A stretch of DNA of 64,000 nucleotides from Flavobacterium sp. GSB-24 (GTDB taxonomy: Bacteria > Bacteroidota > Bacteroidia > Flavobacteriales > Flavobacteriaceae): the NCBI RefSeq assembly GCF_027924665.1, contig NZ_AP027043.1, positions 2,914,001 through 2,978,000 on the forward strand, given 5' to 3'. The translations under genes and the position numbers were made by a program. Numbering within the stretch: position 1 is the first letter of the stretch; each line of letters opens with the position of its first letter. This document shows, piece after piece, positions 25,860 to 55,410 of this stretch. The notes under the pieces were generated by a model. The model saw only the letters and a program-made list of their open reading frames with translations, did no database searches and was not told the DNA's origin.

Positions 25860-25873
25860 TGTGCACGGGCACA
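25860..25873. promoter_or_regulatory. Operator-like palindrome TGTGCACGGGCACA (site A)
   Basis: A 14-bp palindrome with 5-bp perfect half-sites TGTGC/GCACA around a CG-centred core, 52 bases upstream of the GH39-like start. The same half-sites with the same spacing recur at 37982, 55341 and 55397, always in leaders of region 3 units. Even symmetry and the central CG agree with LacI-family operators. Confidence 0.7.
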
Positions 25874-25925
25874 CAATAAAAAAAATTATTTTATAATAAT
25901 TTGTTGAATAAAATTGCTAACCATC

Positions 25926-27458
25926 ATGTTTAAAACCACCAGTCATATTATTTGCGCCTTCTTCTCAAAAAAGTTACCATTATCAATATACCTTTTATTG
26001 GTAGTACAATTAATTTGGAGTCAAAGTACGGCTTCACTAAATAATACAAATTTTGAGGTACCGTTAGAGTTCATTGGAACAGTGCAAAATCGTGATGCCA
26101 AAGAAATAAAGACTTCTAATTGGATTATTGGCTGTGAGACGCTCGATCGAGACATGACCGATTACCATCAATATAAAGAATATTTAGGGCCTCTTGGAAT
26201 AAAAAGATTAAGAATGCAGGCTGGCTGGGCCAAAACAGAAAAGGAAAAAGGGAAATATGACTGGAGCTGGCTGGACAAAATTGTTGATGACGCTGTAAAA
26301 CGCGGTTTAGAAATATGGCTGGAAACTTCTTATGGAAATCCAATCTATGAAGGCGGCGGAGGTATTAATTTAAGCGCAGGGATTCCTACTTCTGATGAAG
26401 CTCTTGTTGCCTGGGATAAATGGGTTAAAGCTTTAGTAATTAGATATAAGGATAAAATTCACGAATGGGAAGTGTGGAATGAACCTAATTTTGGCGATAA
26501 TAAAATAAATTCACCAGAAAAAGTAGCTGGATTAAATATTCGCACAGCCGAAATTATAAAGAGTATTCAGCCCCAGGCAATAATCTCTGGACTATCCCTC
26601 GGACATATTGATCTGCAGTATGCCGATAAGTTTTTTAAAGTTCTTCACGATAAAAAGAAACTTAATCTATTTGATAATATGACCTACCATGATTATGTGT
26701 ATAATCCGGATTCTAATTACGGACGTGTATCTGAATTACGTTCTGTTCTTAATAAGTACAGCACTAAAATTAAATTAAGACAAGGAGAAAATGGAGCCCC
26801 GTCATTTGGTGGTGGTGGAAGAGGAGCATTAGGTGATTATGACTGGACAGAACTCTCTCAGGCTAAATGGAATTCACGACGAATGCTTGGCAATCTTGGG
26901 CATGATATCCAATGTAGTATACTGGGAATTATTGATATGAATTATGGTATGGCCGGAAGCCCTATTACTAAACTGAATGTAAAGGGAATTATTGAATCCG
27001 ATGCAACAAGAAAAGCAGTCCGTCCAAAAATGGCGTATTATGCCATGCAAAATATAGCTTCCATTTTTGATGATTCGCTGCAGCGTATAACAGACCTGCA
27101 TCACACCTATAATATAACTGGAGCAGAAAAAGGAGAACACCGATACAGTTGTGGTACCGACAGGAGTATATCAGTTTATGGTTATGAGCATAAAGATTCC
27201 AAAAAACAGGTTTACACAATTTGGATGGACGAGAATATTCCTTTGAATTCAAACACAGGCAAACTTCAGGATTTTTCATTTTCCAATGCAAATTTTGAAA
27301 ACCCAGTATATGTTGATATTTTATCTGGAAAAGTTTACAGTATACCTGCTGATAAATGGAGTAAAAAAGGAGATATTTTTACTTTCAAAGATATTTTAAT
27401 CTATGATTCCCCTGTTTTGATAATTGAAAAAAGTCTCCTGAAAATCAAGACACCTTAG
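25926..27458 (+). CDS. Clan GH-A glycoside hydrolase, GH39-like
   Basis: Start at ATG 25926 (510 residues) is preferred over an in-frame TTG at 25914. It gives a basic N-terminus and a hydrophobic signal ending near LIWSQ. The TIM barrel shows both catalytic glutamates of clan GH-A: acid/base Glu186 in WEVWNEPNF and probable nucleophile Glu288 in LRQGENGAPS. Other landmarks are KRLRMQAGWAKTEKEKGKYDWSWL in two blocks, LEIWLETSYGNP and MTYHDYVYNPDS. The layout fits GH39 (beta-xylosidases, iduronidases) or a near relative. The C-terminal ~70 residues form a small beta domain. It opens the region 3 enzyme run, right after operator site A. Confidence 0.75.
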   Translation: MFKTTSHIICAFFSKKLPLSIYLLLVVQLIWSQSTASLNNTNFEVPLEFIGTVQNRDAKEIKTSNWIIGCETLDRDMTDYHQYKEYLGPLGIKRLRMQAGWAKTEKEKGKYDWSWLDKIVDDAVKRGLEIWLETSYGNPIYEGGGGINLSAGIPTSDEALVAWDKWVKALVIRYKDKIHEWEVWNEPNFGDNKINSPEKVAGLNIRTAEIIKSIQPQAIISGLSLGHIDLQYADKFFKVLHDKKKLNLFDNMTYHDYVYNPDSNYGRVSELRSVLNKYSTKIKLRQGENGAPSFGGGGRGALGDYDWTELSQAKWNSRRMLGNLGHDIQCSILGIIDMNYGMAGSPITKLNVKGIIESDATRKAVRPKMAYYAMQNIASIFDDSLQRITDLHHTYNITGAEKGEHRYSCGTDRSISVYGYEHKDSKKQVYTIWMDENIPLNSNTGKLQDFSFSNANFENPVYVDILSGKVYSIPADKWSKKGDIFTFKDILIYDSPVLIIEKSLLKIKTP

Positions 27459-27488
27459 TTCACTTTCCTAATTTTATTTTATTAAATC

Positions 27489-29294
27489 ATGAAATACAAA
27501 AAAGTATTTGTACTTCTTCTGCTAGTTTGTGCAGGAGCTAGTGCACAGAGAAGCTATAAGCTTACTTCAGATCTTGAAGCATTAAAACCAACCAATATTT
27601 TTCCTGAAAATGCCCAGACTGATTTTGTTCTCAGAGATGGATCAAAAGCCGATAAGAAAGCCACTTTCGAGGGTAAAACAGATAAGGATGGCAATACAAT
27701 TTTTACAGCTGAAGTTTTTGCAACAGCAAAATCACATTACGATGTCAATGTAAAATGGATTTGCAGTAAGCCCGTAAAAAAAGGAGATGTTATTTTAGCA
27801 AAGCTGGCTATGCGAGCACTTTATGCAAGGCAGGAATCTGGGGAAGCTGTGGTGAATTTTTACATGAGCCGCAAAAACTATGATGGTGATAAAAGTATTA
27901 TTATCCAGCTTGGCGCCGGACCTGAATGGAAAGAATATGATATTCCGTTTACAGCTTTAACTGATATACCTTTGGGAGAGGGCGAAATTTATCTTTCACT
28001 TGGAGCGCTACCGCAAAAGGTAGAAATAAAAGACGTGGTTGTTTTAAATTTTGAGAATAAAATTTCTTTGGAAAAACTGCCAGTAACGCGTTTTACTTAT
28101 TTAGGACGCGAGAAGAATGCGGCATGGAGAACTAAAGCCTTAAAAAAAATCGAAGAAATCAGAACAGCACCAATTGCTATTCATATAACAGACTCAAAAG
28201 GTAATGCTGTTAAGGGGGCAAAAGTTGAGGTCAAAATGAAAACTTCAGAATTTATTTGGGGAACCGCTGTTAACGAAGAAATTTTAGCTGAAGATCTGCC
28301 AGATTCAAATGAATACGAGAAAAATCTTTTAGAACTTTTTAATACAGCAGTTATAGAAAACGGATTTAAAGGAGGCTCCTGGAAACAAAATGAAAAGAAG
28401 CAGCAACAAACCATAAAAGCATTTGAATGGCTGGAAAAAAATGGATTCAGGCAACGTGGACATAATTTAGTCTGGCCGGCATGGAAATTTAATCCTGCAA
28501 GTGTTAAAACACTTGCAGAGAAGGATCCCAAGGCATTCGAAAAATACATTGAAGATGAAATACGCGAAAAAACATCTATCTTAAAAGGAAGAGTAATTGG
28601 ATGGGATGTTATAAATGAACTAGTGCATGAAAAAGAATTTTTTGCATATCTGCCAAAAGATATTGAAGTAAAATGGTTTCAGATTGCTAAATCTATAGAT
28701 CCTCAGGCCCAAATGTTTATTAATGAATATGGGATGCTTAACAGTATCGCCAGCCCGAAAAACATTAAGGAATACCTGCAATTAATTAGTGAATTGAGAA
28801 CTAAAGGAGCTCCTGTTGATGCAATAGGAATTCAGGGCCATGTGGGAAGACAGCCAAGGAACCCAGAGCAGGTAATTTCCGATCTTGAATTATTTAAATC
28901 TTCTGGGCTTCCTGTTCAGATTACAGAGTTTGATATCAACATGAAAGATGAGGAACTGCAGGCGGACTATACACGAGACTTTTTAATTGCATGTTACAGT
29001 TCTCCAGTTGTAACAGGATTTACGATTTGGGGTTTCTGGCAACCCAAACACTGGAAACCTGATGCCGCTATGTTTAGAAAAGACTGGACTGCAAAACCAA
29101 ATGCCCAGGCTTGGCGTGATCTGGTAACCAAGGAGTGGAAAACCAATTTTATAAAGCAATCTGACAGCAAAGGCGATGTTAGTTCACGAGGACATTTTGG
29201 ACTTTATGAAATAACGGTAACAAATGGAAGTGTGGTAAAAAAAGTAATGTATCAGTTGAATAAGGAAAGCCAAAAATTGGACATAAAATTATAA
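27489..29294 (+). CDS. GH10 family endo-beta-1,4-xylanase-like enzyme
   Basis: A 601-residue exported enzyme (signal ending ASAQ). Residues ~25-190 form an N-terminal beta-sandwich of carbohydrate-binding type, then a short SKGNAVKGAKVEVKMK linker strand. The GH10 barrel spans ~245-555, with GHNLVWPAWKFNP, acid/base Glu377 in WDVINELVHE, MFINEYGML, AIGIQGHVG and nucleophile Glu480 in QITEFDINM. GH10 enzymes cleave xylan main chains; some relatives with this N-terminal domain act on other beta-glycans. No lipobox, so probably periplasmic. It is 30 bases downstream of the GH39-like gene. Confidence 0.92.
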   Translation: MKYKKVFVLLLLVCAGASAQRSYKLTSDLEALKPTNIFPENAQTDFVLRDGSKADKKATFEGKTDKDGNTIFTAEVFATAKSHYDVNVKWICSKPVKKGDVILAKLAMRALYARQESGEAVVNFYMSRKNYDGDKSIIIQLGAGPEWKEYDIPFTALTDIPLGEGEIYLSLGALPQKVEIKDVVVLNFENKISLEKLPVTRFTYLGREKNAAWRTKALKKIEEIRTAPIAIHITDSKGNAVKGAKVEVKMKTSEFIWGTAVNEEILAEDLPDSNEYEKNLLELFNTAVIENGFKGGSWKQNEKKQQQTIKAFEWLEKNGFRQRGHNLVWPAWKFNPASVKTLAEKDPKAFEKYIEDEIREKTSILKGRVIGWDVINELVHEKEFFAYLPKDIEVKWFQIAKSIDPQAQMFINEYGMLNSIASPKNIKEYLQLISELRTKGAPVDAIGIQGHVGRQPRNPEQVISDLELFKSSGLPVQITEFDINMKDEELQADYTRDFLIACYSSPVVTGFTIWGFWQPKHWKPDAAMFRKDWTAKPNAQAWRDLVTKEWKTNFIKQSDSKGDVSSRGHFGLYEITVTNGSVVKKVMYQLNKESQKLDIKL

Positions 29295-29383
29295 TACTGG
29301 CAGTATTGCGAACAAAGTACTTGTTATGATTTTTTAAGATAATAGAATCGCTTTTAAATTTAAAATACTAATAAAATAAAAAT

Positions 29384-31042
29384 ATGAAACGGACTATCTT
29401 TATAAATTTGATTTTACTGCTGGCTATTCTGACAACATCTGTTTCAGGTGCCAGAAATATTTACGTGGCAACAACCGGCAATGATTCTCCCAATGACGGC
29501 ACGATTGAGAAGCCTTATCTGACGATAAATAAAGCTGCACAAGTTGCAGTGGCAGGAGATGTGGTAATCATAAAATCTGGTACCTATTCTCCAACGGCAC
29601 AGATTGATATGGCAAATTCCGGCACAGCGCTCCTTCCTATTACTTACAAGGCAGAAATTCCGGGGGAAGTAATCATAGATGGTGCAGCTTCAGCAACCCC
29701 TACAGTCTCAAACAGGCGCGGACTTATTACGATCGCAGGAACAAATGCGACAAATTTGAAAAGCTGGATTATAGTTGAAGGCCTCCGTCTTATAAATTCA
29801 AAATGGGCTGGCATTATAGCAATTAATAGCTCAAACATTACCATAAAAAATTGCAGTACCTACAATACCGGAGCCTCCGGAATAATCGGCGCTACATCAT
29901 CAAATATCCAGGTATTAAACAATAAAGTGCAGCAGGCCTGCGTATATCCTGATAAAGCAGCCGGGACAAATGAATGTATTACAATGGCAAGCGTGGATAC
30001 CTTTGAGGTTGGATACAATACGGTTTCTGATCGGCCTACAGATCCGTCTAACGGAGGAGAGGGAATTGATGCAAAAAATGCCTGCAGTAACGGGAGCATA
30101 CACCACAATACGGTTTTTAATTTGTACCGTGTTGGTATTTATGTAGATGCCTATCAAAAAAACATCAATAATATAGAAGTATATGCCAACAAAGTTTATG
30201 ATATTGGAGGTGGGGGAATTACTATAGCCAGCGAGGAAGGCGGTACGGCAAAAGGTATTAGGGTCCACGATAATGTTGTATATAATATAAAAAGAGTAGG
30301 TATCAGAATTGCAGGCTATCTTAACAATGGGCCTTTGCAGGAGATTGATGTATATCAAAATACTATTGTTAACTGCGGTACAAGTGGAGGCAATTGGGAG
30401 AACTGCGGTCTGTTGATTGAAGCTACAAATGCAGCAAACTACGGATTTAATATAAGAAACAATATAATAGCCTCATCGCCTGTACAAATAAGGGGAAACA
30501 ATCAGACCTATCCTATTGTTATAGATAATAATATTTTATTCGGATCAACTTTGCTCTCCGGGACAAATGCAATTACACAGGATCCTAAATTTACAGATCC
30601 GGCATCAAATGATTATAGATTAAAAGAAGGGTCGCCTGCTATAAATAAAGTGGCAGGATCTCCTTTGTCGACTAAAGATTTTAACGATGTGGTGAGAGCA
30701 GCAGGAAATCAGGGTGATATTGGAGCGTTTGAATATAGTCCTAATCTTAGCACAGGTAATGTAATTCAAAAAGAATCAGGACGAGGATTAAGAGTATATC
30801 CCAATCCTGCTAAAGAGGCCATAACCATAAAAATACCATCGGATGAGGCTGATAAGTACAATGTATTTATATATGACCTACAGGGCAGATTAGTTTACAG
30901 TGAAAATGACACTCGTTTGTTGGTTCCAGGAACGGATTTAATTAGTATTAACACCAATAAATTTACCAACGGCCTATATGTATTAAAAGTTGCTGGCGAG
31001 ACTGGTAAAAATTTCTTATCCAAATTTCTCATTCAAAAATAA
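29384..31042 (+). CDS. Right-handed beta-helix protein with T9SS C-terminal sorting domain
   Basis: A 552-residue secreted protein. The Sec signal covers residues ~1-22. The body opens with NIYVATTGNDSPNDGTIEKP and GDVVIIKSGTYSPT, the usual entry to parallel beta-helix proteins (polysaccharide lyase-like and DUF1565-type). About ten coils with N-x-[IV]-x-N ladders follow (ITIKNCSTYN, IRVHDNVVYNIKRVGIRI, IDVYQNTIVN). The last ~80 residues are a type A T9SS sorting domain (LRVYPNPAKEAITIKIP ... NGLYVLKV ... KFLIQK), so it is exported across the outer membrane and probably surface-attached. It may be a lyase or epimerase-like enzyme for a uronate-containing polymer; catalytic residues are not identified. 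Confidence 0.82.
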   Translation: MKRTIFINLILLLAILTTSVSGARNIYVATTGNDSPNDGTIEKPYLTINKAAQVAVAGDVVIIKSGTYSPTAQIDMANSGTALLPITYKAEIPGEVIIDGAASATPTVSNRRGLITIAGTNATNLKSWIIVEGLRLINSKWAGIIAINSSNITIKNCSTYNTGASGIIGATSSNIQVLNNKVQQACVYPDKAAGTNECITMASVDTFEVGYNTVSDRPTDPSNGGEGIDAKNACSNGSIHHNTVFNLYRVGIYVDAYQKNINNIEVYANKVYDIGGGGITIASEEGGTAKGIRVHDNVVYNIKRVGIRIAGYLNNGPLQEIDVYQNTIVNCGTSGGNWENCGLLIEATNAANYGFNIRNNIIASSPVQIRGNNQTYPIVIDNNILFGSTLLSGTNAITQDPKFTDPASNDYRLKEGSPAINKVAGSPLSTKDFNDVVRAAGNQGDIGAFEYSPNLSTGNVIQKESGRGLRVYPNPAKEAITIKIPSDEADKYNVFIYDLQGRLVYSENDTRLLVPGTDLISINTNKFTNGLYVLKVAGETGKNFLSKFLIQK

Positions 31043-31043
31043 T

Positions 31044-32996
31044 ATGAGAGCTCTTTTTTTATATTGCTATTTGACTTTCTGCTCAGTATTTTTATGTCAT
31101 GCACAACAAACAAATACTTCCTATGATGTTAGGCACATTATCAAATCAGTTTACGAGCAGGGTATACAGCATACTGAATTGGATTTTTATGCCGGTACCT
31201 TGCTTTTGCACGGAATAAGTGAGTTTTCGCTACTGCCGGGAAATGAAGATATTCTTAAAAATACCATTTCAACCTATAAACTGTTTTCAGACGGTTCCAT
31301 AAATGCAAAGGGAAGCATTATATCCTATGAAGCAGGCGGCTCTGGAGCGTCTTATCTGGCATGGAAAAATGTTGCGCCTGACCTTGATAAGCAAATTTAC
31401 ACTACAGCAGAGAAGATGATGCAGCTGCAAAACCGTTCTCCTGAAGGTTTAATGACTGCTAATTTTGCAACTGGTGATAAAATTTTTATAGACGTTGCAT
31501 TTGCTGTAAGTCCATATCTATTATACGCTGGACTTAAAAAAGGAAATCAGCAATTTATAAACATGGCTGTAGATGAAACACTGGGTCTGTTCCAAATATT
31601 AAAAGATAAAAGGACAGGTCTGCTTCATCAGGCCAGAGGATTTGCCAGACCAGGAAGCATCTCTGAGGATAATTGGAGCAGGGGAAACGGTTGGGGTGCA
31701 TTTGCATTGGCGATTTTAGTTCGTGATCTGCCGCATACACATCCTAAATATAAGGAGGTCGAAGAATTAGGCAGACAATTTTTTACAGATGTAATAAAAT
31801 ATCAAAATAAAGAAGGTTTGTGGCATCAGGAAATGACGGATAAGACTTCTTATGTTGAAACTTCAGGAAGCGGATTGCTTTTGTATGGTTTGGGGATTAT
31901 GCTTGAAAAAAAAGTACTTGATCAAAAATACATGAAGGATTTCAAACTTGGCCTTGCAGGCTACCTGTCTTATATAGGTACAGATGGTTCTGTGAGTCAT
32001 ACCTGTTTCAGCTGTCTCGCGCCAAATAATGGAACAAAACAAGACTACAAATCCCGCCCATGGGTATTTAATGATCATCATGCTTTTGGTCCCGCTGTTC
32101 TGGCTTTCAGTCAGGCAGCCAAAATGGGCATCGCCAATGTAAAACCTTTAAAAAGAATGGGAATTTATTCTATTGCTGATTCACCAAAAACAGTAAGAAC
32201 CTATATGAAATTTGAAAGGGGAAGTGATATAGCATGGGAGAATGACAGAATTGCATACAGGCTTTATGGGCCTTCCGTAAGGTCTAAAGTCGGCAATGGC
32301 ATAGATGTTTGGACTAAAAAAGTAGATTATCCAGTTATAGATAATTGGTACAAACTAAATGATCAGGGAAAGGATTATCATATCGACAGGGGAGAAGGTC
32401 TTGATTTTTATCATATGGGCAAACTCAGAGGCTGTGGCGCTATAGCGGTTTGGATAGATGGAAAACCTTATCCTTCAGCAACTTTTGACAGCTATAAATT
32501 TCTTAAAAATCAAACGGATGGTATTGGTGTACAGCTTAATTATCAAACGTGGAATGTTCCGGGTATTACTGCCTTGGAAGAAAAAAAAGTCATTGAAATG
32601 GGACTCGGAACCAATCTTTTTAAAGTAACAAGCACCATAAAAAGCGATAAAGATATTGAGCTTACTATTGGCATTGGAATAACGACCTATGGACATCCCG
32701 AAGTTGACAAAGATCAAAAATCGGCAACAGTAAGTACATGGGAAAATATCAGTACTGAGAATGGAAGCATAGGTTCAGCAGTTTTGGCTGATCCTAAGAA
32801 TTTTATTGGCTATGGCTGGTATGAGGGTGACCAATATGTTCTGATTAAGATAAAAACCAATGTTCCCTTTGTTTATTACGCGGGAGCAGGATGGGATCAT
32901 AGTTCTTTTTTTAAGAACAAGGAAGATTGGTTCAGCTATATCAAGTTACAAGCCAGTGTAATTGACTTCATGGACAGGACAGCTGTTTACAAATAG
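31044..32996 (+). CDS. GH105-type unsaturated uronyl hydrolase fused to a DUF4861 domain
   Basis: The ATG at 31044, one base after the previous stop, gives a good signal (MRALFLYCYLTFCSVFLCHA). A longer in-frame start inside the upstream gene would bury it. Residues ~25-365 are a GH88/GH105-like (alpha/alpha)6 barrel, with the candidate acid Asp150 in KIFIDVAFAVSPYLLYAG, His195 in LLHQARG, DNWSRGNGWGAFALA and VETSGSGLLLYGLGIML. Residues ~375-650 match DUF4861 (FERGSDIAWENDRIAYRLYG, YPVIDNWYKLN, GCGAIAVWIDGKPYP). GH105 removes 4,5-unsaturated uronic acids produced by lyases, which fits the lyase-like neighbours and the uronate genes downstream. Translation with the upstream gene is likely coupled. 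Confidence 0.82.
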   Translation: MRALFLYCYLTFCSVFLCHAQQTNTSYDVRHIIKSVYEQGIQHTELDFYAGTLLLHGISEFSLLPGNEDILKNTISTYKLFSDGSINAKGSIISYEAGGSGASYLAWKNVAPDLDKQIYTTAEKMMQLQNRSPEGLMTANFATGDKIFIDVAFAVSPYLLYAGLKKGNQQFINMAVDETLGLFQILKDKRTGLLHQARGFARPGSISEDNWSRGNGWGAFALAILVRDLPHTHPKYKEVEELGRQFFTDVIKYQNKEGLWHQEMTDKTSYVETSGSGLLLYGLGIMLEKKVLDQKYMKDFKLGLAGYLSYIGTDGSVSHTCFSCLAPNNGTKQDYKSRPWVFNDHHAFGPAVLAFSQAAKMGIANVKPLKRMGIYSIADSPKTVRTYMKFERGSDIAWENDRIAYRLYGPSVRSKVGNGIDVWTKKVDYPVIDNWYKLNDQGKDYHIDRGEGLDFYHMGKLRGCGAIAVWIDGKPYPSATFDSYKFLKNQTDGIGVQLNYQTWNVPGITALEEKKVIEMGLGTNLFKVTSTIKSDKDIELTIGIGITTYGHPEVDKDQKSATVSTWENISTENGSIGSAVLADPKNFIGYGWYEGDQYVLIKIKTNVPFVYYAGAGWDHSSFFKNKEDWFSYIKLQASVIDFMDRTAVYK

Positions 32997-33188
32997 GAAT
33001 TCAATTACTAATAAATTTTTTTCGACAACTAATCAATTTTACAGATGTTGTTTTCAAAGGGAATGATGTTGTCTCGGTAATAAGCTATTTTTTCTATTTT
33101 CTGAACGATGCGTCTTACCGCGATGAAGAGCATGCTGATATATTTGAAATGTATTTTTTTAATCATTATAAACAAAATACTAATGACT

Positions 33189-33211
33189 GGAAAAAATGTT
33201 TTTCCTTTTTT
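33189..33211 (+). terminator. Rho-independent terminator after the GH105-DUF4861 gene
   Basis: Stem GGAAAAA (33189-33195) with TTTTTCC (33199-33205), 3-base loop, followed directly by a six-T run. It separates the GH39/GH10/GH105 unit from the downstream GH92 gene. Confidence 0.55.
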
Positions 33212-33230
33212 AAAAACATAATTTTTAACA

Positions 33231-33246
33231 TAGAAACAAGTTTCTA
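33231..33246. promoter_or_regulatory. Inverted repeat TAGAAAC-AA-GTTTCTA upstream of GH92
   Basis: Perfect 7-bp arms around 2 bases, between the terminator at 33189 and the GH92 start at 33261. Its position suggests an operator or part of a short leader. It differs from the TGTGC palindrome. Function is not established. Confidence 0.35.
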
Positions 33247-33260
33247 CAATACTTCTTATT

Positions 33261-40382: not shown

Positions 40383-40403
40383 ATATCATAATTAACCCTG
40401 GCA

Positions 40404-42029: not shown

Positions 42030-42064
42030 ATTGAAAATAGTATTTCTTAATAACAAATTACATT

Positions 42065-44080: not shown

Positions 44081-44106
44081 CATAAAATTAAATCTGAACA
44101 ATAATT

Positions 44107-46671: not shown

Positions 46672-46674
46672 GCC

Positions 46675-47583
46675 ATGAACAAGAGTAAAATAATTGTAGT
46701 AGGAAGTTCTAATACCGATATGGTTTTAAGAACAGAAAGATTTCCAAAACCAGGCGAGACGATTCTTGGAGGTGATTTTTACATTTTTCAAGGAGGAAAA
46801 GGTGCCAACCAGGCTGTTGCAGCTGCCAGAGCCGGAGCCGATGTTAAATTTATCTGCAGAGTCGGAAGCGATACTTTTGGATACAATGCCATGGCGCATT
46901 ATAATCAGGAAAATATTGATATAAGCTGTATTGCACAGGATCAGGATGCACCTACGGGTGTGGCTGTAATAACAGTTAATTCTGAGGGTGAGAATTCCAT
47001 CATAGTGGCGTCAGGAGCCAATGCATTACTTAGACCAAATGATGTATTGGCGGGGATTGAAAAAGCAGCTGATTCCAAATGGATTATTACACAGCTGGAA
47101 TCGCCTATAGAGGTTGTTGCAGACCTTGCAAGACATGCTAAAATAAACAATAAATACCTGATATTAAATCCTGCTCCTGCAGCGATTTTACCTAATGAAG
47201 TGTATGATGGATTATTTCTAATTACACCCAATCAGACCGAAACAGAACTGCTGACAGGAATTAAAGTTACCGATGCCATTTCAGCGGGAAAGGCTGCAGA
47301 AATTTTCAAATCAAGAGGAGTACAAAATACCATCATTACCATGGGAAGCAAAGGCGCTTACGTGTCTGCTGAATCTTTTAAGGATCTTATTGAATCTCCA
47401 AGAGTAAATGCAGTTGATACAACAGCTGCCGGAGATATTTTTAACGGTGCCCTTATTGTTGCTTTGTCTGAAGATAGAGGCTGGAAAGAAGCAGTTGAAT
47501 TTGCCTGCAAGGCTGCCGCGGTATCAGTAACAAGAATGGGAGCCCAAATATCTGCACCTTTTAGAGAAGAAATTACAATATAA
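46675..47583 (+). CDS. rbsK: Ribokinase-type PfkB carbohydrate kinase
   Basis: A 302-residue cytoplasmic kinase. PfkB signatures are complete: VGSSNTDMVLRTERFPKPGE at the N-terminus, GGKGANQAVAAARAGADV, ILNPAPA, ITPNQTETELLTG and the C-terminal DTTAAGDIFNGAL with the catalytic base Asp254. These match bacterial ribokinases best (ribose to ribose 5-phosphate). It starts 3 bases after the GH127 stop and 6 bases before the ADP-ribosylglycohydrolase gene, so it belongs to the same operon. A kinase of another sugar, such as arabinose or a deoxysugar, is possible. Confidence 0.88.
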   Translation: MNKSKIIVVGSSNTDMVLRTERFPKPGETILGGDFYIFQGGKGANQAVAAARAGADVKFICRVGSDTFGYNAMAHYNQENIDISCIAQDQDAPTGVAVITVNSEGENSIIVASGANALLRPNDVLAGIEKAADSKWIITQLESPIEVVADLARHAKINNKYLILNPAPAAILPNEVYDGLFLITPNQTETELLTGIKVTDAISAGKAAEIFKSRGVQNTIITMGSKGAYVSAESFKDLIESPRVNAVDTTAAGDIFNGALIVALSEDRGWKEAVEFACKAAAVSVTRMGAQISAPFREEITI

Positions 47584-47589
47584 AGTTCT

Positions 47590-49185
47590 ATGAAATTACT
47601 TCCATCAATATTCACATTATTATTTTGTACTGTCGCCTTCGGACAAGATATAAAACAACGAAACAGCAGCGATACACATAAAGAAGTTTTTAAGATATCC
47701 CTTGAGGATTATGAGGATAGGGTTCACGCTATATGGGCTGGACAGATCATCGCCACACTTATGGCATTGCCTTCTGAGCACACTGTGGCCTCTGTTAAAT
47801 GGATTGATCAAATCCAGCCACAATTGCGTTCCAGACTTCTTGATGATGATTGGTATTATGAGATGATTGCCATCAAAGGCTTTGAAAAATATGGTACCGA
47901 AATGACTGCAGCAGAGCTTGGGGAAATGTGGAAGGAAAATAAATGCGGTTCATGGGGATCCAGTGCTGAAGCCAGAAAACTGCTTGATGAAGGAGTAAAG
48001 GCACCTTTAACAGGCCATCCTCTTTATAATAGATTCTGGTTTACAATTGGCCCTCAGTTCAGTGCAGATGTTTATGGTGCATTATCACCCGGAAGGCCTA
48101 ATCTTGCTGGTCGGATGGCAAGGCAATATGGTCATGTCAACGGATATGCAGAGGGTGCTGACGGGGCAGTTTTTGTAGCTACAGCCATTAGTCTGGGATT
48201 TATAGAGAAGGATACCAAAACAATCGTACGTAAAGCAGCTTCGATACTTGATGACAAATCCCCGTACAAAAAATGTCTGAACATGGTCATTGCTATGGCT
48301 GAAGGGGGCACACCAGTGCAGGAAATTCTGGAAACTATAGAGCAGAAGTGGCATATTGAATACCCTAATACAAACAATGCTGTTGCAAATGGCGGCATCA
48401 TAGCAGCCTGCCTGTGGTTTGGAGAGGGGGATTTTTTAAAAACGGTTAATCTGGCATCCAGAAGTCTTGATTTTACAGATTCTGACTGTAATGCTGCCAA
48501 TGCTGCGGGAGTTATTATGGCAATGAAAGGAACTTCGGGAATCCCTTCCGGATTAATGCAGCAATTAGGTGACAGAATAATTGGAGATAAAATGGGCAAG
48601 ATTGAATTTGTGCCGGCTATCGATGAAAGTATTACTGAGCTTTCAAAACGGACTGCTTTGATTGGTCAGAAAATTTTATTAAAAAATGGAGCTTCGATAT
48701 CAGCAAAAGGTCTTTCTATTCCCCTTGATCAAATTATTCCCCAGCCTGCAGAGCTTTTTAGTCTTGCCGAATATACAAAGACTTGGAATCCGGCATGGCA
48801 GCTTGCAGGTGCAGGTTTTTTTGGACCAAAGGGCGGCACCTATTTAGATCTTGACCAAAATGTGTTAGTTACTTACCCAAGAGATGAAGTGCGCAGGCTC
48901 AATCTAAGCCGTATAATTAATTTAAAACAACAAAAGGAACTAAAAATTATAGCGGGTTCAGATACGGATCGGCCATGGGAACTAGTAGTTTATGTAGACG
49001 ATGAAAAAGTTAATAGTACTGTTATTGAATCTGTTTCAGAAAACCAAAAATGGCAGGAAGTACTAGTTGATTTGAAAAAATATCAGGGTCAGGAGGTAAA
49101 GATAAGAATATTCCAAAATGTATTAATTAAGGCAAGCAACAAGCTTGGCGGGAGTGCCTACTGGAAAAATATCACAATTTTATAA
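47590..49185 (+). CDS. Exported ADP-ribosylglycohydrolase-fold protein
   Basis: A 531-residue protein with a Sec signal (ending TVAFGQ). Residues ~35-350 show the ADP-ribosylglycohydrolase (DraG/ARH) all-helical fold: RVHAIWAGQIIATLMALPSE, YAEGADGAVFVATAISLGF, NNAVANGGIIAACLWFGEGD and the metal-binding TDSDCNAANAAGV segment. The C-terminal ~140 residues form a beta-sandwich (LIAGSD-type strands, VLVDLKKYQGQEVKIRIFQN), suggestive of carbohydrate binding. ARH enzymes hydrolyse ADP-ribose or related ribosyl bonds. Export plus a ribokinase and a sugar permease gene on either side points to ribose or ribosyl scavenging, as in Bacteroidetes ribose-utilization systems. Confidence 0.82.
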   Translation: MKLLPSIFTLLFCTVAFGQDIKQRNSSDTHKEVFKISLEDYEDRVHAIWAGQIIATLMALPSEHTVASVKWIDQIQPQLRSRLLDDDWYYEMIAIKGFEKYGTEMTAAELGEMWKENKCGSWGSSAEARKLLDEGVKAPLTGHPLYNRFWFTIGPQFSADVYGALSPGRPNLAGRMARQYGHVNGYAEGADGAVFVATAISLGFIEKDTKTIVRKAASILDDKSPYKKCLNMVIAMAEGGTPVQEILETIEQKWHIEYPNTNNAVANGGIIAACLWFGEGDFLKTVNLASRSLDFTDSDCNAANAAGVIMAMKGTSGIPSGLMQQLGDRIIGDKMGKIEFVPAIDESITELSKRTALIGQKILLKNGASISAKGLSIPLDQIIPQPAELFSLAEYTKTWNPAWQLAGAGFFGPKGGTYLDLDQNVLVTYPRDEVRRLNLSRIINLKQQKELKIIAGSDTDRPWELVVYVDDEKVNSTVIESVSENQKWQEVLVDLKKYQGQEVKIRIFQNVLIKASNKLGGSAYWKNITIL

Positions 49186-49204
49186 TCATTAAAAACATTA
49201 AATT

Positions 49205-50203
49205 ATGTTTGTAATTCATTCATATAACACAGCAATTTTATTTTGTTTTATCACCATGCTTTGCTGGGGATCGTGGGCCAATACCACCAAATTAAGTTCT
49301 TCGCACTGGCGTTTTGAGCTTTTTTATTGGGATTATGCAATAGGCATTTTGCTTTTGTCATTATTGATGGCCTTTACTATGGGAAGTTACGGCAATACCG
49401 GAATGCCATTTTTAGAGAACATGGCACAGGCCAATAAAGAAAATATATTTTCTGCACTTATTGGCGGTATTGTTTTTAATCTCGCCAATATCCTTTTAGT
49501 TTCAGCTATTGCCCTAGCCGGTATGAGCGTTGCATTCCCGGTGGGGATAGGAATAGCTTTAATATTAGGAGTTCTGGTAAACTATGCTGACAATCCACAG
49601 GGCAATGCAATACTGCTTTTTGGCGGGGTTGCATTAATTGCAATAGCCATTTTACTCAATGCAAACGCCTATAAGAAGGTTTCCACAATTGCAGGATCAT
49701 TTTCAGTTAAAGGACTTTTGCTTGCTATTATTGCTGGAGTCCTGATGGGCTTTTTCTATAAATATGTTGCTGCTTCGATATATGCTGATTTTACAGTTCC
49801 TGAATCGGGTAAACTCACTCCGTACACTGCGCTGGTATTTTTTGCACTGGGTATAGTGGGGAGCAATTTTATTTTTAATGGGCTGTTAATGCGTTTTCCT
49901 TTTTCGGGAACCCGCTTAAGTGCCCGTGATTATTTTAAAGGTTCTGCCAAAGATCATCTAATAGGAATTTTTGGTGGTGCTGTCTGGCATCTTGGAATGT
50001 CTTTTAATATAATAGCATCTGGCATGGCTGGTTCTGCCATATCGTATGGATTAGGGCAGGGAGCAACAATTATTGCGGCAATCTGGGGAATTTTTATATG
50101 GAAAGAATTTGCAGATGCTTCTCCGGGAACCACAAGAAAATTGTATTTAATGCTTGCATTATATCTTGTTGGAATTCTTTTAATCATTCTAGCAAAAAAA
50201 TAA
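49205..50203 (+). CDS. GRP/RhaT-type sugar permease (DMT superfamily)
   Basis: A 332-residue inner-membrane protein with about ten hydrophobic helices. It opens with a helix containing TMLCWGSWANTTKLSSSHWR and continues with FYWDYAIGILLLSLLMAFT, AIALAGMSVAFPVGIGIALI and a final IWKEFADASPGTTRKLYLML. The pattern is that of the GRP/RhaT sugar transporters, often labelled DMT permeases in Bacteroidota. It lies 19 bases after the ADP-ribosylglycohydrolase gene and 11 before a GH3 gene. Uptake of ribose or another pentose is inferred from context. Confidence 0.82.
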   Translation: MFVIHSYNTAILFCFITMLCWGSWANTTKLSSSHWRFELFYWDYAIGILLLSLLMAFTMGSYGNTGMPFLENMAQANKENIFSALIGGIVFNLANILLVSAIALAGMSVAFPVGIGIALILGVLVNYADNPQGNAILLFGGVALIAIAILLNANAYKKVSTIAGSFSVKGLLLAIIAGVLMGFFYKYVAASIYADFTVPESGKLTPYTALVFFALGIVGSNFIFNGLLMRFPFSGTRLSARDYFKGSAKDHLIGIFGGAVWHLGMSFNIIASGMAGSAISYGLGQGATIIAAIWGIFIWKEFADASPGTTRKLYLMLALYLVGILLIILAKK

Positions 50204-50214
50204 TAACAATTATT

Positions 50215-52413
50215 ATGAGACCTACTATAATTCAAACAATGGTTGTGATTTTTACACTGAACCTGGTAAGTGGACAAGTGCCATTATATAAGGATAAGTC
50301 AGTAAAAGTCCAGGAAAGAGTCGCTGATTTAGTTAAACGGATGACTTTTGAGGAAAAAGTACTTCAGCTTAATCAATATACTTTCGGACTCAACAGTAAT
50401 CCCAATAATATTGGGCCAGAGATTAAAAAACTTCCTGCGGGAATAGGTTCTTTAATCTATTTCAGTGCTGATCCGGTTTTAAGAAACGCAGTTCAAAAGA
50501 AAGCAATGGAGGAGACCCGTCTTGGAATTCCGGTTCTTTTTGGCTTTGATGTTATTCATGGTTTTCGCACCGTTTATCCAATTTCAATTGCGCAAGCCTG
50601 TTCGTGGAATCCGGAGCTTGTAAAATTAAATTGCGCCGAAGCGGCAAGAGAGTCTGTTTTATCCGGTGTAGACTGGACTTTTTCGCCTATGATTGATGTT
50701 GCAAGAGATCCCAGATGGGGACGAGTTTCTGAAGGTTATGGAGAAGATCCATATGTAAACGCTGTCTTTGGCGCCGCATCTGTAAGAGGCTATCAGGGAG
50801 CCAAACTTTCAGATCCTTTTTCTATCGCCGCCTGTCTTAAGCACTATGTAGGTTATGGAATGAGCGAAGGCGGACGCGATTATCGTTTTAGTGATGTATC
50901 GCCTCAATCACTGTGGGAAACCTATTTACCACCTTATAAAGCCTGTATTGATGCTGGTGCCGCCACTGTTATGAGCGGTTTCAACGATATCAGCGGAGTT
51001 CCGGCTACATCTAATTATTACACATTAACTGAAATCCTTAAAAACCGCTGGAAATTTGAAGGCTTTGTCCTATCAGACTGGAATGCAGTAGAGCAATTAA
51101 CATATCAGGGAGTTGCAAAAGATAAAAAAGAAGCAGCTCAGAAAGCTTTTATGGCAGGAGTAGAAATGGACATGAAAGATAATATTTACCTTGAAAATTT
51201 TACGGCACTACTCGCAGAAAAAAAAATCACAATAAAGGCCATTGACGAAGCTGTAGGCCGTGTGCTGAAAGTTAAGTTTGAGCTTGGATTGTTTGACAAT
51301 CCATACACAGAAATTATAGATGAGAATCTGCGCTATCTTCAGCCACAGAGCAAACAGTTGGCAGCAAATCTGGCAGCAGAATCCATGGTACTTCTAAAAA
51401 ATAACAACAATATTCTGCCGCTTAAAAATGAAACTAAAAAAATTGCTTTAATTGGCCCTATGGCTAAAGACAAGGAAAACATAATTGGATCATGGTCTTT
51501 TAACGGACAAGCAAAAGATGCTGAATCAATTTTTGAGGGCATAGCAAATGAATTTAAAAATGTTTCTGTTAATTATGCGAAAGGCTGTGATTTTGACGGA
51601 TCAGATGAGCAAGGCTTTGCTGAGGCTCTTTCTATAGCGCAGCAGTCAGATGTTATTGTACTTTGTTTAGGAGAGAAAAAGACGTGGAGCGGGGAGAACG
51701 CCTCAAGATCTACAATTGCGCTTCCTGAAATACAGGAAAAGCTTGCACAGGCCCTGCAAAAGACAGGCAAGCCAATTGTACTGGTTTTATCCAGTGGCCG
51801 CCCACTAGAATTGGCAAGACTTGAGAAAACTGCAGCTGCGGTCATTGAGATATGGCAGCCAGGAATTGAAGGAGGAACTCCTTTGGCAGGAATTCTTTCA
51901 GGAAGACTGAATCCTTCAGGCAAATTAGCTATAACTTTTCCGCTCACTACAGGACAGATACCTGTCTATTACGGTATGCGCCAAAGTGCCAGACCTTTTG
52001 ATAAACAAGGCGATTATCAGGATATTTCAACCCAGCCGTTATATAATTTCGGACATGGTTTAAGCTATACAGACTATAAGTACAGCCCTGTAGAATCGTC
52101 AGCGGTAAAAGTCAGCAAAAAACAAAAAATTAAGTTTCAGGTCATTATTTCCAATGAAGGAAAATACGATGGAAAAGAAACGGTGTTATGGTATGTTTCT
52201 GATCCTGTTGCATCGATTTCAAGACCTTTAAAGGAACTGAAGTTTTTCGAGAAAAAAGAGATAAAATCTGGACAAAAAACGGTTTACACCTACGAGATAG
52301 ACCCAATACGCGATTTAAGCTTTCCCGATTCAGACGGAAAACTTTTATTTGAACCCGGAGAGTTTTATTTATATGCAAATGATCAAAAGATAAAATTCGA
52401 AGTTACTGAGTAA
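50215..52413 (+). CDS. GH3 family beta-glycosidase (beta-glucosidase-like)
   Basis: ATG at 50215, 11 bases after the permease stop, gives a signal ending near LVSGQ; a longer in-frame start inside the permease gene is rejected. The 732-residue protein has the two GH3 domains and a C-terminal Fn3-like domain. Landmarks are VADLVKRMTFEEKVLQLNQ, FGFDVIHGFRTVYPI, DPRWGRVSEGYGEDPYV, CLKHYVGYGMSEGGRDY, nucleophile Asp288 in VLSDWNAVEQL, AAESMVLLKNNNNILPL and LYNFGHGLSYTDYKYS. It resembles periplasmic BglX-type enzymes. Probable role: trimming of beta-linked oligosaccharides. Confidence 0.93.
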   Translation: MRPTIIQTMVVIFTLNLVSGQVPLYKDKSVKVQERVADLVKRMTFEEKVLQLNQYTFGLNSNPNNIGPEIKKLPAGIGSLIYFSADPVLRNAVQKKAMEETRLGIPVLFGFDVIHGFRTVYPISIAQACSWNPELVKLNCAEAARESVLSGVDWTFSPMIDVARDPRWGRVSEGYGEDPYVNAVFGAASVRGYQGAKLSDPFSIAACLKHYVGYGMSEGGRDYRFSDVSPQSLWETYLPPYKACIDAGAATVMSGFNDISGVPATSNYYTLTEILKNRWKFEGFVLSDWNAVEQLTYQGVAKDKKEAAQKAFMAGVEMDMKDNIYLENFTALLAEKKITIKAIDEAVGRVLKVKFELGLFDNPYTEIIDENLRYLQPQSKQLAANLAAESMVLLKNNNNILPLKNETKKIALIGPMAKDKENIIGSWSFNGQAKDAESIFEGIANEFKNVSVNYAKGCDFDGSDEQGFAEALSIAQQSDVIVLCLGEKKTWSGENASRSTIALPEIQEKLAQALQKTGKPIVLVLSSGRPLELARLEKTAAAVIEIWQPGIEGGTPLAGILSGRLNPSGKLAITFPLTTGQIPVYYGMRQSARPFDKQGDYQDISTQPLYNFGHGLSYTDYKYSPVESSAVKVSKKQKIKFQVIISNEGKYDGKETVLWYVSDPVASISRPLKELKFFEKKEIKSGQKTVYTYEIDPIRDLSFPDSDGKLLFEPGEFYLYANDQKIKFEVTE

Positions 52414-52439
52414 GTAAGGTTCATTAAAAAATACTAACT

Positions 52440-55061
52440 ATGAATATTCATTTCTCAATGCCTCTTAACTTCAATAAAATAATAGTGTTCTTTTTTATTT
52501 TAGTTTGCCAGTTTAAACTACAGGCACAAAATAGCTACAACAATCCTAAATACACCATCGAGCAGCGGGTAGAGGATCTGCTCTCCAAAATGACTCTGGA
52601 TGAAAAACTGAGCCAGATGGTAAACAATTCACCTGCTATTGAAAGATTGAATATTCCAGCCTATAATTGGTGGAATGAGAGCCTTCATGGCGTAGCGCGA
52701 ACACCTTATAATGTAACTTCCTATCCACAGGCAATTGCTATGGCAGCCTCTTGGAATCCCAAGTCTATTCATCAGATGGCAGAGTACTGTGCCGTTGAGG
52801 GACGGGCTATATATAATGACTCAAGAAAGAAAGGAAAATCAGGTATTTATCTCGGACTTACCTACTGGTCTCCCAATATCAATATATTTCGCGACCCACG
52901 ATGGGGAAGAGGACAGGAAACCTATGGAGAAGATCCGTTCCTGACTAGCTCACTTGGCAAGGCATTCGTAGAGGGACTTCAGGGTGATGACCCTGTCTAT
53001 CTTAATGCGTCGGCTTGTGCCAAACATTTTGCCGTGCACAGTGGACCAGAATGGAGTCGTAGTACCTACAATGCCCAGGTTTCAAAACATGATTTGTGGG
53101 ATACCTATCTGCCTGCTTTTCGTGATTTAATAGTAGATGCGAAGGTAAGCGGTGTTATGTGCGCTTATAACCAATTTGAAGGCAAACCTTGTTGCGGAAG
53201 TGATATTCTTATGCAGGATATTCTTCGAAAACAATGGAACTTCAAAGGTTACGTTACCTCAGACTGCGGAGGAATTAGCATGTTCTGGAAAACGCATAAA
53301 ACGCATTCGAATAAGGAAACCGCGGCCGCAGATGCAGTTTTAAACGGAACGGATTGCGAATGTTCTTCAGATCCTACTTATAAAGCATTAAAAAGCGCAA
53401 TTGCTCAGGGACTTCTTTCGGAACAAAGTGTAGATGTTTCGGTTAAAAGACTGCTGACGATACGTTTTCGATTGGGAATGTTTGACCCAGAAGGATCAGC
53501 TCCGATGTCAAAGATCAATATTTCAGCTTTGGAAAGTCCTTCGCATAAAGCTCATGCTTTAAAAATGGCGCAGGAGTCAATGGTGCTTCTTAAAAACGAA
53601 AACAACCTGCTGCCACTAAGTAAGAAGATAAAAAAAATAGCAGTGGTCGGTCCAAATGCAAATGATAAGTCGGTTATGTTGGCTAACTATTATGGTTATC
53701 CTTCACATATTAGCACCCTTTTGGAAGGAATAAAAAGTAAGGTTGGTGGCAATGTGCTGTTTGAACAGGGAATTAACTTAGTCGACAATAAAGTATTCAA
53801 GTCGCGTTATAATGAAAAAGAATTTGTCTCCGAAGGAAAGTTAGGTTTTAAAGCCTCCTATTTTCAAAACACAAAATTTGAAGGCAGCCCGCTTATTGAG
53901 AAACTTGATAAAAATGTCGATTTTAAATGGGGAGACGGACATCTTATTGATAATAAGGTTGTAATAAGAGATATTTCAGTTCGATGGACAACTGATTTTG
54001 TACCTAATGATACCAAAGAAACAACATTTAGCCTGATGGGAGACGATCATGCGGTTTTATATCTTGACGGAAATAAAGTCATAGATACGGATTTAAAAAC
54101 CTCCTACTATACCTTTAAGGCTGAAAAGGGAAAAAAATACAAGCTTGTTATAGAATATGTGCAGTATAATGATAATGCTGAGGTAAAATTCGATATAGGG
54201 GTAACCGAAGCTATTTCTCCTGAGGCTTTGGCCGAAAAAGTAAAAGATGCTGATGTTATTATTTTTGCTGGTGGTATATCGGCGCAGCTTGAAGGAGAAT
54301 CAATGCCGGTTTCAGTCGATGGATTTAAAGGAGGCGACAGAACTAATATCAATCTTCCGGCCTTGCAGACACAAACTATGCAGGCTTTAAAGGCAACAGG
54401 AAAACCAGTAATTTATATCAACATGTCAGGCAGTGCAATGGGATTTGAGTGGGAAGCTAAAAATCTTCCTGCTATTATTCAGGCATGGTATCCTGGACAG
54501 GAGGGAGGTCAGGCAATTGCAGATGTATTGTTTGGAGATTATAATCCGGCAGGAAGACTTCCTGTTACTTTTTACAAAAATGTGGGAGATCTTCCGGATT
54601 TCGAAAATTATTCAATGGATAACAGGACCTACCGATATTATAGAGGCGAACCTTTGTATCCTTTTGGCTTTGGTCTTAGCTACACCAGTTTTAGATATAG
54701 TAATCTGCAGGCAGTTTCAAGTGTTAAAAAAGGGGAGGATATTTCTATCTCTGTTAAAGTAGAAAATACCGGCAAGCGAGCAGGAGATGAGGTTGCTCAA
54801 TTGTATATTTCACATAATGGTACTGATGTAAAGGTGCCTATTCGTTCCCTGAAAGGTTTTCAAAGAATTCATTTGAAGGCAGGGGAAATTCAGACTCTTA
54901 CATTTAAAGTTTCCGCAAAAGATTTAAGTGTAATAGATGAAAACGGTCTGGCAATAGAATGGACTGGAAATATTGTAATTTCAGTTGGCGGCGCTCAGCC
55001 TTCATCACAATTTCTTAAAAATGGAACTGTTGCCGAAAAATCAATAAAAATTTTACCGTAG
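52440..55061 (+). CDS. GH3 family enzyme with inserted PA14 domain, beta-xylosidase-like
   Basis: An 873-residue exported enzyme (signal ending KLQAQ). It carries YNWWNESLHGVAR and TYWSPNINIFRDPRWGRGQE, the pattern of GH3 beta-xylosidases, then CAKHFAVHSGPEWSR and nucleophile Asp275 in VTSDCGGISMF. A PA14-like sandwich is inserted in the second domain (~460-600: FKASYFQNTKFEGSPL, FSLMGDDHAVLYLDGNKVID). The end is Fn3-like (YPFGFGLSYTSFRYS, VKVPIRSLKGFQRIHLKAGE). PA14 inserts in GH3 often shape specificity. It is the last enzyme gene before the SusC leader; nothing terminator-like was seen immediately after it. Confidence 0.92.
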   Translation: MNIHFSMPLNFNKIIVFFFILVCQFKLQAQNSYNNPKYTIEQRVEDLLSKMTLDEKLSQMVNNSPAIERLNIPAYNWWNESLHGVARTPYNVTSYPQAIAMAASWNPKSIHQMAEYCAVEGRAIYNDSRKKGKSGIYLGLTYWSPNINIFRDPRWGRGQETYGEDPFLTSSLGKAFVEGLQGDDPVYLNASACAKHFAVHSGPEWSRSTYNAQVSKHDLWDTYLPAFRDLIVDAKVSGVMCAYNQFEGKPCCGSDILMQDILRKQWNFKGYVTSDCGGISMFWKTHKTHSNKETAAADAVLNGTDCECSSDPTYKALKSAIAQGLLSEQSVDVSVKRLLTIRFRLGMFDPEGSAPMSKINISALESPSHKAHALKMAQESMVLLKNENNLLPLSKKIKKIAVVGPNANDKSVMLANYYGYPSHISTLLEGIKSKVGGNVLFEQGINLVDNKVFKSRYNEKEFVSEGKLGFKASYFQNTKFEGSPLIEKLDKNVDFKWGDGHLIDNKVVIRDISVRWTTDFVPNDTKETTFSLMGDDHAVLYLDGNKVIDTDLKTSYYTFKAEKGKKYKLVIEYVQYNDNAEVKFDIGVTEAISPEALAEKVKDADVIIFAGGISAQLEGESMPVSVDGFKGGDRTNINLPALQTQTMQALKATGKPVIYINMSGSAMGFEWEAKNLPAIIQAWYPGQEGGQAIADVLFGDYNPAGRLPVTFYKNVGDLPDFENYSMDNRTYRYYRGEPLYPFGFGLSYTSFRYSNLQAVSSVKKGEDISISVKVENTGKRAGDEVAQLYISHNGTDVKVPIRSLKGFQRIHLKAGEIQTLTFKVSAKDLSVIDENGLAIEWTGNIVISVGGAQPSSQFLKNGTVAEKSIKILP

Positions 55062-55321: not shown

Positions 55322-55329
55322 TATATTTG
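55322..55329 (+). promoter_or_regulatory. Candidate -7 promoter box for the SusC operon
   Basis: TATATTTG, an exact match to TAnnTTTG, 11 bases upstream of operator site C. Transcription would start at about 55335, placing site C at the start of the transcript. No convincing -33 box was seen. The rest of 55062-55320 is very AT-rich and holds no gene. Confidence 0.45.
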
Positions 55330-55340
55330 TATTTATAATA

Positions 55341-55354
55341 TGTGCAGGGGCACA
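55341..55354. promoter_or_regulatory. Operator-like palindrome TGTGCAGGGGCACA (site C)
   Basis: Identical to site B. It is positioned just downstream of the TATATTTG box, as expected for a repressor site. In RNA it would fold as a 5-bp stem with an AGGG loop. Confidence 0.7.
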
Positions 55355-55358
55355 GATT

Positions 55359-55384
55359 AAAAAAGCTTCTAAAGAGCTTTTTTT
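55359..55384 (+). terminator. Terminator-like hairpin in the SusC leader
   Basis: 9-bp perfect stem (AAAAAAGCT at 55359-55367 with AGCTTTTTT at 55375-55383, 7-base loop), ending in a T run. It lies between sites C and D and 68 bases before the SusC ATG, so it would sit inside the leader transcript. It could act as an attenuator, or end read-through from upstream genes. Confidence 0.55.
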
Positions 55385-55396
55385 AAAAAACATTTC

Positions 55397-55410
55397 TGTG
55401 CCCGAGCACA
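55397..55410. promoter_or_regulatory. Operator-like palindrome TGTGCCCGAGCACA (site D)
   Basis: Fourth copy of the TGTGC-N4-GCACA motif, with arms extended to CTGTGC/GCACAG, 42 bases before the SusC ATG. Centre-to-centre distance to site C is 56 bases, close to five helical turns, compatible with DNA looping by a tetrameric or paired dimeric regulator. Confidence 0.7.

Follow-up and report, generated by a model that had tools for sequence, protein, structure and literature searches.

In Escherichia coli, the LacI repressor acts on the lac operator, and the centre of O1 lies at +11. In Bacteroidota, LacI-family regulators of glucuronate and 2-keto-3-deoxygluconate (KDG) catabolism, namely UxuR, UxaR and KdgR, have been described in Bacteroides (PMC3878776; PMC4052901). 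We consider here a 64,000-nucleotide stretch of the genome of Flavobacterium sp. GSB-24 (contig NZ_AP027043.1, positions 2,914,001 to 2,978,000; hereafter the window, in which coordinates are counted from 1). An earlier reading made from its letters, without database searches (the sequence-only reading), had singled out four palindromes of the form TGTGC-N4-GCACA ahead of genes for polysaccharide and uronate utilization. It is very probable that these palindromes serve as operators for the LacI-family product of the gene at 24485-25555, a dimer of which would repress three polysaccharide-to-glucuronate units until a uronate-derived ligand is present. Such a switch would be of an ordinary kind, and unusually well tied to its sites.

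The likeness to E. coli LacI and lac O1 concerns the register of the half-sites counted from the dyad (TGTGAGC versus TGTGCNC here), the residues R20, A51 and L54, and a repressor-type position of the operator just past the transcription start. Unlike E. coli LacI, the system of GSB-24 has a C at operator position NT-3, an RGTVDR recognition helix, a Peripla_BP_4 effector domain, a SusC/SusD locus and a TAnnTTTG promoter. UxuR, UxaR and KdgR share with it the family, the phylum and the catabolic theme, but they (KdgR among others) are described in those papers as monosaccharide regulators with few periplasmic or extracellular genes, whereas the sites of the single regulator considered here also precede SusC/D and many extracellular enzymes; it is by these descriptions that the systems are set apart. 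ManR and AraR of Bacteroides are alike in span, each being a monosaccharide regulator that covers cytoplasmic enzymes, SusC/D and extracellular enzymes, but they belong to the GntR and NrtR families and concern mannose and arabinose (PMC3878776). The motif string was not found in the literature searched, a result that does not extend to figures, supplements or subscription journals, and a search on Flavobacterium LacI operators returned no such regulon by title or abstract opening. The kind of regulator is already known; the regulator, the motif and the locus are a new member of it.

The palindromic sites and their distribution

Four exact copies of TGTGC-N4-GCACA, each with perfect 5+5 half-sites, start at positions 25860, 37982, 55341 and 55397 of the window, where 0.02 are expected and where none of 100 shuffles reached four.

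25860..25873, + strand: operator A, TGTGCACGGGCACA, exact motif, ending 52 nt before ATG 25926, in the leader of the unit GH39/42-like - GH10 - beta-helix - GH88/105 (GH, glycoside hydrolase family)
37982..37995, + strand: operator B, TGTGCAGGGGCACA, exact motif, ending 54 nt before ATG 38050, in the leader of the beta-helix-to-GH3 unit
55341..55354, + strand: operator C, TGTGCAGGGGCACA, exact motif, ending 97 nt before the first ATG, in the susC leader, 11 nt past the -7 box
55397..55410, + strand: operator D, TGTGCCCGAGCACA, exact motif, ending 41 nt before the first ATG, second site in the susC leader, 56 bp after C

These matches confirm the four sites of the sequence-only reading, with their shared half-sites and spacing, and their place in the leaders of three units, all 41-97 nt before an ATG. 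They are also the only intergenic copies in the window, as had been claimed, scans for exact sites and for sites with one mismatch permitted having added none. The operators are even palindromes (TGTGCNN/NNGCACA, the slash marking the dyad), and every exact site has G at NT-6 because the match itself requires it; A and D have a CG centre, B and C a GG centre. All four are non-coding, provided that translation of susC begins with the ATG at 55452; the open reading frame (ORF) caller chose instead a GTG at 55398, which would make the gene overlap site D. Site A and the start codon of LacI are 305 bp apart, the site standing within the divergent spacer and nearer to the GH39/42-like gene. Between C and D (55355-55396) stands an A/T-rich inverted repeat, AAAAAAGCTTCTAAAGAGCTTTTTT, which by eye is not evident in the other susC leaders inspected.

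In the 5.35-Mb genome, TGTGCN4GCACA has six exact copies, against none for the backward control. The two outside the window are C1:80049, within an ORF, and C1:2260204, outside ORFs of at least 60 aa and with an AGAT centre. A refined motif, TGTGCNSGNGCACA, which combines the half-sites with the type of centre present in the window and in the orthologs found first, has four exact genomic copies, every one in this locus. With one mismatch permitted, 77 forward matches were found versus 26 for the backward control, so that this search is unusable by itself; its matches include four sites flanking another LacI gene, C1:2589403-2590455.

The distribution of the motif was followed in a first draw of 121 genus genomes, with the loose form TGTGCN4GCACA, and in a larger draw of 398 Flavobacterium genomes, with the refined motif. 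The loose form, without the centre rule, matched in 75 of the 121 genomes and was rejected as a marker on that account; the highest counts were those of G073 and G147, with eight sites each. Five genomes were inspected (G073, G080, G086, G116 and G147). In G073, which had been chosen by site count together with the four others, before any look for its LacI ortholog, the sites are mostly of one centre type and lie in this same locus, beside a LacI ortholog. In G147 the eight sites are scattered and have mixed centres, one of them fitting TGTGCNSGNGCACA on one strand; this genome has no LacI ortholog and is unmatched in the 398-genome draw.

Scoring of the top five candidates in each genome showed that 6 of the 398 genomes hold a LacI ortholog; identity is 56-100% in these, and the next best match is at 40%. 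Forward matches to TGTGCNSGNGCACA in these six number 4, 1, 3, 3, 6 and 7, the last two counts each including one coding match. At least three copies are present in five of the six, and in none of the 392 other genomes, 30 of which have any match, with a maximum of two each. Fisher's test, in which relatedness is ignored, gives p ~4e-7 when any match counts and ~7e-11 when at least three are required. The refined motif was chosen once the window and some early orthologs were known, so that the larger draw is an independent test only for genomes then unseen. The single site of the sixth genome, that of F. psychroterrae, fits its gene content, a single unit remaining there and the susC ortholog being absent. 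By the genome-wide frequency check attached to the sequence-only reading, the motif stands above chance.

A natural deletion points the same way. In G259, a genome of the same species, window coordinates 1-18,959 are matched at 97.4%, and then only short pieces from 75,193 onwards (80 kb of G259 compared). At the syntenic place this genome lacks the ~56-kb block 18,960-75,192, which runs on past the window end and holds the LacI gene, the four sites and the units. Nor does the rest of G259 contain the refined motif or an ortholog of LacI or of susC (best susC match 35%). The right edge of the deletion is not clean, there being short matches only beyond it. No tRNA gene was found in the window. 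The polysaccharide island is strain-variable. Among the genes tested, namely the divergent LacI, a second LacI-family gene (LacI2), AraC, Crp-like and SusC, only the divergent LacI accompanies the sites in every lineage. The proposal that this LacI is the candidate binder therefore gains support from co-occurrence, conservation and the G259 absence, binding itself being predicted.

Identity to the LacI protein of the window is 90% in F. psychroterrae (G060), 83% in G061/G062, 60% in G063, 58% in G256 and 56% in G073. G061 and G062, which are ~99% identical across the locus, were counted as one lineage; F. psychroterrae stands for G060/G213, F. cupreum for G061/G345 and F. fryxellicola for G063/G229. 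The susC leader carries a site in all five lineages with a susC ortholog (the window, G061/G062, G063, G073 and G256), and the GH39/42-like leader does so in five of six, G073 having a two-mismatch form. Comparison of orthologous loci thus upholds the earlier expectation of conservation in leaders where the LacI gene is present. The C/D pair is spaced by 57 bp in G061/G062, versus 56 bp in the window, and some sites of G073 and G256 are farther from the gene start than the 41-97 nt of the window. The orthologous loci hold 28 exact sites, 26 intergenic and 2 coding; subtraction of the two coding sites and of three G061 duplicates gives the set of 23 used below. Over the 28,837 intergenic bases of these loci, and with any centre, 23 places match exactly, 1 has one mismatch and 3 have two, one of the mismatched places falling inside uxuA, which the ORF list had missed; with the centre rule (CG, GG, CC) the same scan gives 23 exact sites, no one-mismatch site and 1 two-mismatch site.

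Several observations were made at these loci. The one-mismatch site that appears only without the centre rule is CGTGCTTGTGCACA at G063 C15:53948; it lies 376 bp from the exact site of susC, on the side of LacI and before that gene. At G073 C194:3706 and G256 C14:38837, the exact operator is spelled by Cys-Ala-Arg-Ala-Gln codons near a protein start. In F. cupreum and F. circumlabens (L038/L039 9670-9703), site A is part of a longer inverted repeat, which spans at least 34 bp around a centre of 4 bases. The F. psychroterrae locus is broken inside the GH10 gene and keeps LacI, site A and the GH39/42-like gene (L082 8572-12625); with no susC ortholog in that genome (best match 35%), it is considered a reduced form of the island.

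The LacI protein, the predicted susC promoter and the units

The proposed binder is encoded as follows.

24485..25555, - strand: LacI-family regulator with a helix-turn-helix LacI domain and Peripla_BP_4, proposed as binder on the basis of its co-occurrence with the sites

Scanned as ORF 24485-25630, the protein matches PF00356 at 48.8 bits (cut-off 27) and PF13407 at 106.5 bits (cut-off 35.1). The residues that mark membership of the LacI family are present, R23, A54 and L57 corresponding, with an offset of 3, to the published Arg20, Ala51 and Leu54 (PMC2978694). According to the same description of the family, Arg20 contacts the NT-6 G, while the hinge leucine sits at the operator centre (PMC2978694). 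The predicted contacts of the GSB-24 protein agree with this scheme, the Arg at published position 20 matching the G at NT-6 of the operator. The published LacI specificity code is restricted to the TVSR subgroup (PMC2978694).

A promoter can be predicted for susC. In F. psychrophilum, transcription start sites are preceded by a TAnnTTTG box at -12 to -5 (PMC9723704), and a perfect box of this type is found in the susC leader.

55322..55329, + strand: predicted susC -7 box, TATATTTG, with a predicted transcription start at ~55334

The gap between TATATTTG and the susC operator is exactly 11 nt in five of five lineages. Given the position of the box, the susC operator would occupy ~+8 to +21, and site D of the window ~+64 to +77. 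A perfect TAnnTTTG box stands 7-17 nt upstream of 6 of the 23 sites, versus 0.5 in shuffles (maximum 3 in 1000 shuffles), five of these six being orthologous susC sites and so not independent. A sigma-70 promoter scan stayed at shuffle level, the method being unsuited to this phylum.

The three units downstream of the sites, each inferred to be one operon from strand and spacing, are the following.

25914..37328, + strand: unit A, with GH39/42-like, GH10, beta-helix protein, GH88/105+DUF4861, GH92 and one protein without a Pfam match
38050..55061, + strand: unit B, with beta-helix, SASA esterase, GH31, GH2/5-like, GH127, ribokinase-like PfkB, ADP-ribosylglycohydrolase, sugar permease and two GH3
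55452..64000, + strand: unit C/D, with susC, susD, uxaC, uxuB-type mannonate oxidoreductase, RraA-like and uxuA

The name GH39 in unit A comes from the sequence-only reading; Pfam gives a weak GH42 match only. Between units A and B, at 37381-37412, a strong stem-loop AAAAAGCAGCAGA...TCTGCTGCTTTTT was seen by eye and is likely to be a terminator; it was not listed by the scan of the window. In unit C/D, uxaC is assigned as glucuronate isomerase and uxuA as mannonate dehydratase by Pfam, NCBIfam being only just at cut-off; uxuA starts at 63441, inside the window, and continues beyond its end. Past that end the unit goes on with a flavin adenine dinucleotide (FAD) oxidase, an SSF symporter, a GH3, a kdgK-like PfkB, eda (2-keto-3-deoxy-6-phosphogluconate aldolase) and a carbohydrate esterase of family CE2; the KDG-kinase-like PfkB scores below cut-off with NCBIfam kinase models. 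The route uxaC-uxuB-uxuA-kdgK-eda behind operators C and D is predicted to be complete, and the regulon would unite extracellular enzymes with this predicted glucuronate route.

A mechanism can be proposed on these grounds. A LacI dimer would bind each palindrome, with Arg20 on the NT-6 G and the hinge leucine at the centre. At susC, the bound protein would sterically block initiation or early elongation; repression is favored because the operator lies just downstream of the -7 box. Sites C and D, 56 bp apart, may strengthen repression jointly. The inducer might be glucuronate, KDG or a uronate-bearing oligosaccharide, as suggested by the fact that the susC unit encodes the predicted complete uxaC-uxuB-uxuA-kdgK-eda route. 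Such a ligand would release LacI, and the whole polysaccharide-to-glucuronate pathway would be switched on when its sugar appears.

Probable operator types of related LacI clades

LacI proteins related to the one of the window fall into clades that are accompanied by distinct operator types. The comparison covers the loci examined, the 398-genome draw listing many more clade II and III relatives. Since some clade II sites fall within frames called as ORFs, coding matches were not filtered out when the clade motifs were counted. Clade I, with the helix SRGTVDRVVN.RGY, is accompanied by TGTGCN(C/G)GNGCACA. Clade II is accompanied by CGTGTNCGNACACG in all 16 distinct loci. Three of these first revealed the motif, and the other 13 then proved to have it; it stands ~90-120 bp upstream of its own LacI in 15 of the 16 and ~260 bp past the LacI end in G016. 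In clade III, TGTGYTCGARCACA and one-base variants occur in 9 of 9 distinct loci, often paired 21-24 bp apart, a spacing that can be likened to the peak at 22 bp reported for tandem LacI sites (PMC4052901). No LacI-bearing locus examined contains the motif of a foreign clade.

A clade III protein is encoded in the GSB-24 genome itself, by the gene at C1:2589403-2590455. It resembles the LacI protein of the window in its GTVDR helix and in having CG-centred sites of the TGTGYTCGARCACA type before its susC; it differs by its 28% identity, by site pairs 23 bp apart that are found also at its own promoter, and by its other gene cargo. Around this second LacI gene (G000:C1:2588227-2590552; L069 4228-4264 and 6517-6553), the operator pairs before susC and before the regulator itself are near mirror images. 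A further observation concerns G080, where C1:8000-24000 and 3812000-3831999 have near-identical susC leaders with TGTGCTCGAGCACA, the SusC frame of the second copy being apparently broken.

From these clades, a code is proposed for the GTVDR branch, in which GTG is constant at NT-6 to NT-4, whereas clades I, II and III have T, C and T at NT-7, C, T and C-or-T at NT-3, and free, free and T at NT-2, respectively. The code would track protein changes at published positions 15, 21-23 and 27. A more general GTGnnCGnnCAC rule was dropped, this pattern not being found outside coding sequence at L041 and L042, which hold a fourth LacI type, and at L043. We regard as evenly balanced the broader proposal that GTVDR-branch Flavobacterium LacIs own a readable DNA code of this sort, and that in strain-variable islands repressors of this branch and their matching operators travel as self-contained circuits, each placing an entire pathway, from extracellular to central steps, under a single local switch.

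Competing explanations and significance

Several observations weigh against the assignment of the four palindromes to the divergent LacI, or limit its reach. Binding, repression and the nature of the inducer are inferred from sequence. The promoter geometry is firm at susC only, 17 of the 23 sites having no perfect box 7-17 nt upstream. Site B has no counterpart at that place in G061/G062, and where the window has the C/D pair, G063, G073 and G256 have one exact site each. A lone exact TGTGCN4GCACA lies in an unrelated locus (C1:2260204-2260217), and the sites spelled by CARAQ codons in G073 and G256, dropped as a coding coincidence (by eye, likely signal peptides), are a source of false hits. 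A CG centre has been reported for 1173 of 1303 regulators (PMC4052901), and the sequence-only reading had invoked even symmetry and a CG-type centre in favor of a LacI operator; the symmetry holds, but CG is the centre of only two of the four window sites and of 15 of the 23 intergenic ones, the other eight having GG or CC. Moreover, autoregulation is found in more than three quarters of local regulators, a usual and not a defining trait (PMC4052901), and it is not supported here by the site distances: from the LacI start to the nearest exact site there are ~290-310 bp in the window, G060 and G061/G062, the distance is greater in G063, and the spacer upstream of LacI has no exact site in G073 and G256. 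Finally, the operator code is not free of ambiguity. Motifs I and III overlap, TGTGCTCGAGCACA fitting both, so that clades I and III may cross-react; G080 and G121, with two matches each, carry TGTGCTCGAGCACA and a 29-30% LacI relative of clade III. The fourth LacI type (L041, L042; 42% identical) has none of the three motif kinds in the flanks examined.

Set against these points, the alternatives fare less well. It is unlikely, in our opinion, that the main role of the clade I LacI, once bound to the sites, is that of an activator or an architectural protein: some LacI-family proteins do activate, and the C/D pair could loop DNA, but a susC site downstream of the predicted start favors blocking.

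Very improbable is the idea that the palindromes are RNA hairpins in 5' leaders, with a TGTGC/GCACA stem and a 4-nt loop acting in attenuation or mRNA stability. The predicted susC start does place C and D within the transcript, the four sites fold at -5.8 to -10 kcal/mol, C and D can cross-pair, and in the near-matches G073 C84:10124 and C193:15066 the changes all keep G-U pairing. However, among intergenic near-matches with at most two mismatches no pair is swapped for another Watson-Crick pair, Rfam has no family match over 24400-64000, and cross-pairing is not conserved, three lineages having one exact susC-leader site; moreover, the half-sites change from one LacI clade to another as the protein does.

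Binding by another regulator, either AraC (19137), the Crp-like protein just past the island or a further one, seems a little more improbable still. The AraC and Crp-like genes are nearby, and TGTG...CACA resembles Crp half-sites, but in the Crp consensus the half-sites are two bases farther apart. In the orthologous loci examined, AraC and Crp-like have no match at 1e-10, the Crp-like protein having only a 23% match in G259, and a global regulator would not have exact sites confined to one locus. Least credible of all is LacI2 (16545-17564), which lies ~8 kb from site A and has 56-68% relatives in F. cupreum (G345) and F. psychroterrae (G213), partly near the same locus, but which has a different recognition helix (SISTVSFVLN), has best matches of only 29-30% in G229, G256 and G073 with their 3, 6 and 7 forward site matches, and is ruled out as binder by the same-species genome G259, where it is kept at 99% while the refined motif is absent.

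With the divergent LacI as the preferred binder, a Flavobacterium polysaccharide locus gains a specific candidate for its repressor, together with a candidate operator and a promoter geometry, all directly testable. The motif can be used to annotate regulons in new genomes, as the case of G073 shows. In one genus, three clades with distinct operator types constitute a natural data set on LacI specificity beyond the TVSR subgroup. For the organism, the arrangement suggests that one local LacI switch covers uptake across the outer membrane, cleavage of the polymer and the glucuronate route, functions that Bacteroides often splits between regulators.

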